Positions 23,857 to 30,596 of a stretch of DNA of 64,000 nt are shown one piece after another. The DNA is from Methanosarcina mazei S-6. Lineage in GTDB: Archaea > Halobacteriota > Methanosarcinia > Methanosarcinales > Methanosarcinaceae. The position numbers and the translations under genes were made by a program. The notes below the pieces were generated by a model. That model was not told where the DNA came from. It saw only the letters and a program-made list of their open reading frames with translations, and made no database searches. The DNA is taken from positions 3,968,001 through 4,032,000 of the forward strand of contig NZ_CP009512.1 of the NCBI RefSeq assembly GCF_000970205.1, in the 5' to 3' direction. Position 1 is the first letter of the stretch. Each line of letters begins with the position of its first letter.

Positions 23857-25233
23857 ATGACATTCAGAAAATCATTTGATTGCTACGACTTCTACGACAG
23901 GGCAAAAGTAGGAGAGAAGTGCACCCAGGACGACTGGGACCTTATGAAGATCCCTATGAAAGCAATGGAGCTCAAGCAGAAGTACGGGCTTGACTTCAAA
24001 GGAGAGTTTGTCCCAACAGACAAGGACATGATGGAGAAGCTCTTCCAGGCAGGATTTGAGATGCTCCTTGAGTGTGGTATCTACTGTACGGACACTCACA
24101 GGATCGTAAAGTATACCGAAGACGAAATCTGGGACGCAATCAACAACGTCCAGAAAGAATTCACACTCGGTACTGGCAGGGATGCAGTAAACGTAAGGAA
24201 GAGAAGTGTTGGCGACAAGAGGAAGCCAATCGTTCAGGGCGGTCCTACCGGGTCTCCAATCTCTGAAGAAGTTTTCATGCCAGTACACATGAGCTACGCT
24301 CTTGAGAGAGAAGTGGACACAATTGTAGACGGTGTAATGACATCAGTACGTGGAAAAGCTCCGATTCCAGGAAGCCCCTACGAAGTCCTCGCAGCAAAGA
24401 CAGAAACACGCCTTATAAAGCAGGCATGCGCTATGGCAGGACGCCCGGGAATGGGCATATAGGGACCAGAGACTTCCCTGTCAGCTCAGGGAAATATATC
24501 CTCTGACTGCATGGGAGGCCAGATCTCATCAGACAGCCACGAAGTGTCACAGCTCAACGAACTCAAGATCGACCTTGATGCCATTGCAGTAATCGCACAC
24601 TACAAAGGAAACAGCGACATTATCATGGACGAACAGATGCCGATCTTCGGAGGATACGCAGGCGGCATTGAAGAAACAACAATTGTTGACATTGCAACAC
24701 ACATCAACGCTTTTGTTATGAGCAGTGCAAGCTGGCACCTTGACGGGCCTGTCCACATCCGCTGGGGATCGACCAACACAAGGGAAACCCTGACCATTGC
24801 AGGATGGGCATGTGCAACTATTTCAGAGTTTACGGATATGCTCTCAGGAAACCAGTACTACCCGTGCGCAGGTCCGTGTACTGAGATGTGTCTCCTCGAA
24901 GCTTCAGCACAGTCTATTACAGACACGGCATCTGGAAGGGAAATACTTTCAGGTGTTGCATCCGCAAAGGGTGTAGTGACTGACAAGACAACAGGTATGG
25001 AAGCAAGGATGATGGGAGAAGTAGCAAGGGCAACTGCAGGTATGGAAATCTCAGAAGTTAACAAGGTCCTCAATGCTCTTGTGCCGCTTTATGAGAAGAA
25101 TTACGCAACTGCACCAGCAGGAAAGACTTTCCAGGAATGCTACGACGTAAAGACAATTACCCCAACTGAAGAATACATGCAGGTATATGACGGAGCAAGG
25201 AAGAAGCTCGAAGACCTGGGACTTGTATTCTAA
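23857..25233 (+). CDS. mtmB: Monomethylamine methyltransferase MtmB, with pyrrolysine at codon 202
   Basis: Transfers the methyl group of monomethylamine to the corrinoid of MtmC. The frame from 23857 is interrupted by TAG at 24460-24462 (codon 202) and continues in the same frame to TAA at 25231, for 458 residues, the known MtmB length. Family matches exist on both sides: MTFRKSFDCYDFYDRAKVGE before, and GQISSDSHEVSQLNELKID after. The amber codon therefore encodes pyrrolysine, the residue that binds and orients the amine in the TIM barrel. pylT and pylSBCD lie 5-11 kb upstream. A ggaggc site precedes the ATG. Confidence 0.98.
24474..24493 (+). promoter_or_regulatory. Stem-loop just 3' of the pyrrolysine codon
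   Basis: A 7-bp perfect stem (ttccctg / cagggaa) with the loop tcagct starts 12 nt after the TAG. It is in the place of the proposed PYLIS element of mtmB. Such a fold is known to be at most stimulatory, because amber decoding occurs without it. Confidence 0.5.
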
Positions 25234-28187: not shown

Positions 28188-28645
28188 TTGTCATCAAATA
28201 AGTATATTAAATTTATTGATCTAAGTCTTAAGACGGTTCAGTCTTCTAGACTGAACCTCTATTCTTGCAAATACTCAAAATGTGTTTATACTCAACATCA
28301 GCTTCTTGTTCTTGTTTTGCTGAAAGAGTATATAACTACAGACTATCGTGATTTTGTAGAACTTATTGACCTTATGAGTAATATAAAAGAAAACTTGATC
28401 TTGATAAGGGTCCTCATTACACTACTCTTCAAAAGTTTGTATCCAGAATTCCTTCCTCATTACTTAACCTAATTTTATCAAAAACTCTAAAACTATTTTA
28501 TTCACATGGAGAAAATGCTTCTATTACAGCAATTGATGCAACTGGGTTTACGAGTTCTTATGCAAGTCATTACTACTCTCGAAGAACAGGGAGACTCCGA
28601 AGGAGCTTCCTGAAAACTTCAATAGCAGTAGATACAGATAAAAAA
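28188..28645 (+). pseudogene. Transposase of the outer IS, N-terminal part
   Basis: Starts KYIKFIDLSLKTVQSSRLNL. After a frame change near 28405 it continues [16 protein letters not shown] and [20 protein letters not shown], the latter holding the first catalytic aspartate of a DDE transposase. The frame is cut after VDTDKK by the IS110 insert. It is inactive as it stands. Confidence 0.8.
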
Positions 28646-28718
28646 CGCACATGATATTTTTGGAATAACATGCCCAAAAAATGAAAGTCCTTTTCACTTA
28701 GCTTTTTTGATAATAGAA

Positions 28719-28877
28719 CTCCATCATTACCTTTGGACAGGAAGGTTGTTTTTACTTTGGTTCTCCGAAGCCGTCAAAAAACTAACCATTGAATTGCCAT
28801 CGAAGGCCCAGATGTGACCTTGATCACGGATGCCAAATTGCCTTTGAAGCAATTCTACTGTCCTGGAAATGATGGAG
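28719..28877 (+). ncRNA. Structured RNA in the IS110 left end, candidate bridge RNA
   Basis: Complementary segments define a basal stem, ctccatcatt (28719-28728) with aatgatggag (28868-28877), extended by ggacag (28735-28740) with ctgtcc (28858-28863). Two arms stand on it. Arm 1 pairs ggtt (28744) with aacc (28784) and ctttgg (28755) with ccgaag (28765). Arm 2 pairs gaattgc (28791) with gcaattc (28849), then, past an internal loop, aaggc (28803) with gcctt (28840), with a small gtga/tcac hairpin inside. A two-armed RNA with internal loops, upstream of the transposase, is the layout of IS110 bridge RNAs. Arm 2 carries atgtg and atgccaa, matching the two element ends. Expression is inferred. 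Confidence 0.65.
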
Positions 28878-28886
28878 TAATGTAAA

Positions 28887-30133
28887 TTGGACGGAGAAAT
28901 AAACAAATCTTGTGGTTTAGACATTCACAAACGTTTTGTTATTGCTACTATCCTCAGTAGATCCGGTGAAAAACAACAACATCGTTTTGCCAGAGATGAT
29001 GATGGGATTTTAGATCTTAAAAATTTGGTAACCTCTGAAAAATGTGATGTTGTTGCCTGTGAATCAACAAGTGATTTCTGGGTTCCGATTTATGAGGCAT
29101 TGATAGATCATTTGCCTGTTATAGTTGGAAATGCTCGAGATATGAAAGCATTTACACATAAAAAAACAGATAAAATAGATTCCGAAGTAATTGCAAAACT
29201 TGCATTGAATAAGATGGTTCAACCATCAAGAGTTTTTCCGAAGAAACATAGAGAATTCAGGTCATACGTCAGGCTTCGCCTAACTCTTGTAAGAAAAAGA
29301 ACGGACATTAAAAATGAAGCTCATGCAATTCTTTCCTCCGAAATGTTACATCTGGGTGATGTTCTGACTGACATTTTTGGAAAAAATGGTAGAGCAATTC
29401 TAGCAGGAATCTCTTCAGGTAAAAATATTGATCAAATTATAGAGTCGCTTTCTCCAAATGTTCGGAAAAAGAGTGTTCAGATAAGGGAAATTCTGGATAG
29501 AGAAGTATCACAGAGTGCTGCAATAAGGCTTCAGATATGTCTGAAATCCTTATAAAACATTTAGATGAAGAAATTGAAGTTCTTGAAAGAGAAATTTTCA
29601 ATTATGCTTATCAAAAGCATAAAAGGGAAATGGAAATTTTGATGTCAGTTCCAGGTATTGGAGAGCTTGGTGCGGCAACTCTAATTGCTGAAATAGGAGA
29701 TTTCAGGGATTTTCCAACGGGAGATAAACTTGCTTCATGGCTTGGAATAGTTCCTAATGTGTATCAATCTGCAGATAAATACCATAACGGAAGAATCACT
29801 AAGAGAGGATCAAAAGTAGCAAGGTGGATTCTAACTCAGATTGCTCAAGCAGCAGCAAGAAAGAAAAATAGCAGATTAAAGGAGTTTTTTAACAGGAAAA
29901 AGAAGACAATTGGATATGCTAAGGCAATTATTGCCTTAGCAAGGAAAATTGCAACAATAATATGGCATTTGATCACAAACGATGAGATGTACGAAGATGA
30001 AACAGGATACCAAAAGGGAGAAGTTAAAAAGAGAAAGATTGTTGAGGCAGACATATTCTCGGTTGATGAAAGGATAACAATAATTAGTGGAATTATCGCA
30101 ATTATGGGAAAAAAGGAAGGAGAGAGTACGTGA
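28887..30133 (+). pseudogene. IS110-family transposase with one frameshift
   Basis: The first part (to about 29550) is the DEDD RuvC-like domain: CGLDIHKRF with the first aspartate, VVACESTSDFW, and KTDKIDSEVIAKLA with the last acids. The second part is the C-terminal Tnp domain with MSVPGIGELGAATLIAEIGD, whose glycine-rich stretch precedes the catalytic serine region. The two lie in different frames, joined at 29537-29555 where RLQICLKSL meets IKHLDEEIEVLE. A single-base indel is the simplest explanation, as IS110 enzymes are normally one frame. Confidence 0.85.
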
Positions 30134-30164
30134 TGAGTTTTCTCATCATGGACTTTCATGCCAA

Positions 30165-30596
30165 GTAATATTAGGATGGAAAATCAGTCAAAAACGGATC
30201 ATGATGTCAAACATGCAAAAGCTCTATGCAAAAGCTCTGCTAAGACAATCAAACAAGTTAAGGAAATCAGAATGTTACGTGATGGATAAAGGATATGATT
30301 CTGAAAAAATTCATGAATTAATTAGAGGAGAAATAAAAGCAGACTCAATTATACATTTAAGAGTAAGAAAAAGGGAGAGAATAAAAGGAAAATATAGAAG
30401 ACAGCTACATTTAACCTTTGATAAAATCAGATACAACAAACGGAATATAGCAGAAGCGACATTTTCTGTTGTCAAAAGAAAGTTTGGAGAAGTACTCAGG
30501 GCAAGAAAATACTTTAATCAGGTCAAGGAAATAAAAATTAAACTAATAGTGTATAACATAAATAAAAAAGTTGTAGAAATAATTTACATCAAATAA
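30165..30596 (+). pseudogene. Transposase of the outer IS, C-terminal part
   Basis: Resumes VILGWKISQK after the IS110 insert, changes frame near 30260, then reads ECYVMDKGYDSEKIHELI (second catalytic aspartate) and NIAEATFSVVKRKFGEVL (catalytic glutamate of the DDE triad). It ends close to the right inverted repeat. Confidence 0.8.

Follow-up and report, generated by a model that had tools for sequence, protein, structure and literature searches.

The locus lies in a 64-kb stretch of the Methanosarcina mazei S-6 genome (4.14 Mb), called the window below; all features are given on the + strand. An IS110-family element of ~1.5 kb (28644..30164), with its left end starting at 28646 and its right end finishing at 30162, sits in an IS5-like element (DDE_Tnp_1), which it divides into a left part (28188..28639) and a right part (30165..30596). 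Both parts were delimited by comparison with uninterrupted relatives, and the right part also matches PF01609. The transposase has the domain pair that marks the IS110 family, comprising an N-terminal DEDD part (DEDD_Tnp_IS110, PF01548; 28887..29555) and a C-terminal part (Transposase_20, PF02371; 29537..30133). It matches the NCBIfam model NF033542 (“IS110 family RNA-guided transposase”) with 279 bits against a cut-off of 140, its relatives in the PDB are IS621 and ISCro4, and alignment with IS621 brings the DEDD positions and the catalytic-serine position (YQS/YES) into line. The length of the protein, 414–416 aa, argues for the IS110 over the IS1111 side, judging from sequence, and its named relatives come nearly all from Methanosarcina or other Methanosarcinaceae. 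In the window copy the transposase is frameshifted, so this copy could act only with the transposase of another one. Five other copies bearing the left end (98–99% identity) are found in the same genome, and the own-genome copies L003, L004 and L005 have an intact transposase frame of 416–424 codons.

The insertion site could be read directly from uninterrupted copies of the host element. One of these (L220) has the empty site GATAAAAAA^GTGATATT (also written GTAGACACAGATAAAAAA^GTGATATT), and the empty sites of L221, L223 and L224 are close variants of it. The window junctions are GATAAAAAA-CGCACATG ... CATGCCAA-GTAATATT. The comparison assigns six As to the target and a two-base core, AA, to the element, with no further duplication. 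The left junction has its core copy at 28644-28645 and the right junction at 30163-30164; the left target is a ACAGATAAAAAA-type flank including the core AA (28636..28645), all six As of which are present in the uninterrupted host copies, and the right target is GTAATATTAG (30165..30174). Abutting the two ends of the element gives the donor junction ATGCC-AA-CGCACATG. The dinucleotide core is thus common to target and donor and there is otherwise no target duplication, a further feature of IS110-family membership. A search for inverted repeats also revealed a subterminal pair (I6), ATGAAAGTCC at 28681..28690 and GGACTTTCAT at 30150..30159, which are 100% complementary.

The non-coding left end upstream of the transposase gene had been predicted to encode a two-armed bridge RNA. 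Every stem and arm proposed was present, with the basal stem P1 extended by one pair (28718..28728 with 28868..28878); P1 was also found independently as inverted repeat I1. Within it lie stem P2 (GGACAG, 28735..28740, pairing with CTGTCC, 28858-28863), arm 1 (28744..28787), assigned as the target-binding arm from the fold and from guide–target tracking, and arm 2 (28791..28855), assigned as the donor-binding arm from the fold and from agreement with the right end. Folding of the region, which had been suggested as a check, gave a minimum free energy of −61.6 kcal/mol, compared with a mean of −38.6 (sd 4.2) for shuffled sequences (z = −5.48; 0 of 200 shuffles as good). In this minimum-energy structure the two guide strands of arm 1 pair with each other, only because the target of this copy is an A-run. 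Family-wide, arm 1 starts from a basal GGUU/AACC stem and ends in an apical UGGUU/AGCCG hairpin; both guides lie in the large internal loop between them.

Relatives of the element conserve the fold. An alignment of 35 sequences that included decayed copies yielded no consensus structure with RNAalifold; 21 of the 35 copies folded poorly (z > −2), the decayed ones badly, and a curated set of 16 intact relatives took its place. In these, 91.3% of structure cells are paired, against at most 45% in controls with slid partners, and changes on both sides of a pair occur in 15 cells, a number reached by 0 of 500 shuffles. Double changes affect 4 of the 11 pairs of P1, a compensatory A-U to G-C change converts P2 from GGACAG/CTGTCC to GGGCAG/CTGCCC, and the apical hairpin of arm 1 has U-A, U-G and C-G states. 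In Rfam no family matches the 28718-28878 fold; the only hit in the window is PYLIS_1 (a pyrrolysine insertion element) elsewhere, at 24460-24559, in keeping with a Methanosarcina genome and with the named relatives of the transposase. A covariance search had been proposed in the original prediction; a model built from the 16 intact relatives has a single match in the window (28735-28863, 147.5 bits, E = 1e-32), which shows uniqueness and not independence, since the sequence matched was itself used for training. The model detects the RNA in 40 of the 238 genomes of the class and in 12 of its 39 genera, and its matches extend to other families of the order and class, where the transposases are only ~40% identical. 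A predicted structured RNA in a non-coding element end again agrees with IS110-family membership.

We aligned the left ends of ~80 related elements and compared the strands of the arm-1 loop with the flanks. The original prediction had paired TTAC (28752-28755) with GTAA to the right of the element (30165-30168) and equated AAAAAA (28776-28781) with the bases to its left (28640-28645); the empty site confirms this register. The 5′ strand of the loop contains the right target guide (RTG), GTTTTTACTTT (28748..28758; reverse complement AAAGTAAAAAC), which tracks the right flank, and the 3′ strand contains the left target guide (LTG), CAAAAAA including the core (28775..28781), which tracks the left flank. 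As the targets are A-rich, individual guide matches are short and the weight falls on permutation tests, in which each guide class contributed one score, base composition was the same and one-base slips in A-runs were permitted alike for cognate and permuted pairs. With the register set by inspection before testing, and with guide classes that are related to each other, the LTG matched the left flank across 80 elements in 30 guide classes (z = 5.1, 0 of 20,000 permutations), and the reverse complement of the RTG matched the right flank across 45 elements in 12 guide classes (z = 4.3, 0 of 20,000). The LTG signal is located in the three positions adjoining the A-tract. No signal was obtained with reverse-complemented guides for the LTG, or with reversed and complemented guides for the RTG. 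These arms constitute a target loop with two guides, for left and right target, as in the IS110 family. Both points on which the prediction was said to hang, covariation among homologues and arm-1 loops that follow the flanking target, thus came out in its favour.

Individual elements illustrate this drift of guide and target together. The LTG classes CAAAAAA, CAGAAAA, GATAAAA, TAGAAAAA, TTCCAAAA and TTCGAAAA each adjoin a matching flank. L092 has the LTG CAGAAAA and the flank AGAAAA, in contrast to its siblings with CAAAAAA and AAAAAA, a one-base change in both. One genome (G124) contains two subfamilies that differ in guides, targets and right ends, each self-consistent: the first has guides TAGAAAAA/TAAAAGA, flanks of the same type and the right end CATGCCAA, and the second has guides GATAAAA/ATAAGTA, flanks of the same type and the right end CATGCTAA. 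For own-type copies, the own RTG ranks best of 10. A hold-out element found later by the covariance model (G139) has the LTG CTAAAAAC, an RTG matching at 8 of 10 positions and ATGCTAA as its left donor guide, so that all three strong guides fit; the hold-out was assessed without the right ends of L261, L267 and L271, where contigs end or elements are truncated. The L110 guides would be expected to direct insertion to TTCCAAAATCTAGT. In L207 (G134), an insert of ~75 nt occupies the apical loop of arm 1; both guides are retained and the right flank still fits (A-TGAA).

Arm 2 has the equivalent arrangement with respect to the ends of the element. Its 3′ strand holds the left donor guide (LDG), ATGCCAA (28830..28836), identical to the right end at 30158-30164. 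Across the family this strand reads ATGC[C/T/A]AA and agrees with the right end of the same element in 42 of the 44 compared, covering CC, CT, CA and TT variants. The 5′ strand holds the right donor guide (RDG), AGATGTGACCTT (28810..28821), a discontiguous complement of AA-CG-CACAT in the left end: ATGTG (28812-28816) is the reverse complement of CACAT (28648-28652), and CUU can reach the core AA across the gap. Both matches had been proposed from the window sequence and both are real; the right-end match is borne out across the family, while the RDG covaries only slightly with the left end and is the weakest part of the proposal. The RDG is nearly invariant, partly because the segment forms the apical hairpin, which weakens the covariation support. 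Guides of the donor loop matching the abutted ends, strongly for the LDG and with weak covariation for the RDG, are likewise in keeping with the IS110 family. A donor-guide strand, CCCAGATGTGACCTT (28807-28821), is also 87% complementary to 29342-29356 inside the transposase gene, which may be chance.

The genome also contains 22 copies of a uniform 66-bp unit (68 bp with both core copies), in which 47 bp of the left end of this IS are fused to 19 bp of its right end (loci L021-L048 without L036, L037 and L039-L042). These mini-elements are multicopy and gene-less, have the ends of an autonomous element and occupy their own insertion sites, as MITEs do; in contrast to MITEs they have neither terminal inverted repeats nor a target duplication, and their ends, of IS110 type, carry just the AA core and an internal repeat, ATGAAAGT/ACTTTCAT. 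A search of the open-access literature gave no account of naturally occurring mini-elements of the IS110 family. QMITE2 of Coxiella, considered as a precedent, was rejected, as it is a target of IS1111 and not a derivative (PMC5896051). The mini-elements might never have been mobile, having arisen as independent internal deletions of full copies or as a repeat captured by the IS110 element. They are gene-less and most are diverged. Their right flanks resemble the guide motif far more than random A6 sites do, but agree a little better with guides of the GAAAAGA/TAAAAGA type (4.7/7) than with the present own-genome guide (4.4/7). However, all 22 share the same internal junction at different sites adjoining A-runs and have kept both ends, and two of the sites are empty in sister species (L024 in G003, G008, G014 and G004; L021 in G003), which makes immobility an unlikely explanation. 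The better fit to GAAAAGA/TAAAAGA guides suggests that many of the mini-elements may have been moved by an earlier relative.

Other reduced or rearranged forms were observed. A second gene-less class of ~200–230 bp (L137, L141, L144, L145, L151, L153 and L154, in G013, G016 and G002) keeps the left end and arm 1 and lacks a proper arm 2 and a transposase. At L006/L009 (G000:C1:2365550-2365705), three right ends follow one another with a repeat unit of 51 bp, and the joints are at AAAAAA^GGAAGG within the element's own right end; this looks like self-insertion at an A6-G site of guide-like sequence and a subsequent homologous deletion. In L205 and L206 (G049), an insert of ~150 bp (TGTCCCAAAACTAA...TTAGTTTTGGGACA) splits the left end between the terminus and the bridge RNA.

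A structured leader could serve gene regulation alone, hiding the Shine-Dalgarno sequence and limiting transposition with no guide role. The 3′ strand of P1 includes a Shine-Dalgarno-like GGAG (28874-28877), 9 nt ahead of the TTG start codon at 28887, and in the L110 family the AGGTGAT preceding the start is complementary to ATTACC in the 5′ part of the fold. In ISPpu9, an IS110/IS492-type element of Pseudomonas putida, a fold buries the ribosome-binding site and represses translation of tnp, and the leader described here is similar in that the structured 5′ UTR appears to include the transposase ribosome-binding site (PMC8450116). Regulation by itself, however, does not predict arm-1 loops that follow the flanks or an arm-2 loop that follows the right end, and we consider it very improbable as the whole explanation. 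It could well be an extra role of a guide RNA, and by analogy the RNA may be both a guide and a brake on transposase translation. Chance and low complexity, that is, A-rich loops of an ordinary structured transposon end in an A-rich genome, would account for A-run guides and targets in the window, where single matches of 4–7 nt prove little, and for the RNAalifold result on the mixed alignment, but can be dismissed almost entirely, given the permutation tests and guide controls above, the matching flanks of the non-A guides TTCCAAAA, GATAAAA and ATCTAGT, and the scores of own-type flanks (5.18/7 compared with 3.11 at random A6 sites).

We conclude that the identification of 28718-28878 as a bridge RNA of an archaeal IS110-family element is strongly supported at the sequence level; the fold, the core, the empty sites and the mini-element family are established, as is the way in which guides covary with targets and with right ends. 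The RNA would be transcribed from 28718-28878 and bind the DEDD transposase of the element. In arm 1, the 3′ strand would pair left of the core, with the bottom strand of the target, and the 5′ strand right of the core, with the top strand. Arm 2 would engage the element ends as they abut in the excised circle (...ATGCC-AA-CGCACATG...), with identical geometry. Strand exchange at the common AA core would then insert the element with no added bases, and the 66-bp mini-elements, which have both ends only, would be moved in trans by the same machinery. Taken together, a bridge RNA (seekRNA) at this position, with this guide order, AA-core insertion and action in trans on the mini-elements, is in our estimation very likely to be correct. 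The more extended proposition is probable, with appreciably less assurance: that in a lineage of Methanosarcina-type IS110 elements guides encoded upstream read target and donor in the opposite sense to IS621 and drift naturally to new targets, from genome to genome as well as inside a single one, and that the RNA–transposase complex mobilises the mini-elements in trans.

Among programmable guides for recombination, bridge RNAs form the most recent class. This kind of RNA is already known; new here are the guide order, the natural drift of targets and the mini-element family, and the first and last of these go beyond the original prediction, namely a strand order reversed from that of IS621 and a family of mini-elements within the genome. 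The experimentally studied bridge RNAs compared here are bacterial, and the present family is archaeal, well supported and represented by many insertions. Because natural changes in its guides go hand in hand with changes in the targets, sequence comparison can yield rules for guide length, core and mismatch tolerance. The mini-elements hint at the small amount of DNA with which a bridge recombinase can move cargo in nature, and one class of short repeats seen in methanogens could be explained by them. If the proposition holds, the lineage would represent an RNA-guided MITE system that occurs in nature, and a working intermediate linking the IS110 and IS1111 layouts. The reversed strand order together with an upstream RNA bears on the kinship of the two groups.

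Comparison with characterised systems shows features of both groups. Like IS621 (Durrant et al. 2024, PMC11208160), the element has a DEDD and Tnp_20 transposase, an RNA encoded in the left end ahead of the gene, a target arm followed by a donor arm, internal loops that each hold two guides with an overlap at the dinucleotide core, and discontiguous RDG pairing. It differs in that both arms are enclosed by the basal stem P1/P2, with no separate 5′ stem-loop, in its core (AA, compared with CT in IS621), in its archaeal host and in the guide order within each loop. In IS621/ISEc21 the 5′ side of a loop holds the bottom-strand (left) match and the 3′ side holds the top-strand (right) match (PMC11208160, PMC11187229); here the order is reversed in both loops, and in each arm the top (right) strand is paired by the 5′ strand and the bottom (left) strand by the 3′ strand. 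Placing the RNA on the opposite strand was rejected as an alternative, since the geometry would still not be IS621-like. The guide order of IS1111 seekRNAs is opposite to that of IS621/ISEc21 (PMC11187229), and the present element agrees with the IS1111-type seekRNAs of ISEc11, ISPa11 and ISKpn4 (Siddiquee et al. 2024, PMC11187229) in having the top-strand complement 5′ of the bottom-strand complement, and in having a subterminal inverted repeat, which at 10 bp is within the 7–17 bp of IS1111; its placement here is asymmetric. In contrast to IS1111, the left repeat copy is ~35 bp inside the end, the transposase has 414–416 aa (330–350 aa reported for IS1111), and the long non-coding region that IS1111 elements have downstream of tnp is missing, the RNA region being upstream (PMC11187229). 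Engineered mini-IS of ISEc21 and ISEc11, for which ends of 29 + 16 bp suffice with transposase and RNA in trans (PMC11187229), are comparable to the 47 + 19 bp of the mini-elements, which in contrast are natural and multicopy. With the strand order of IS1111, the upstream RNA of IS110 and a 10-bp subterminal repeat, we read the arrangement as a mixed layout.
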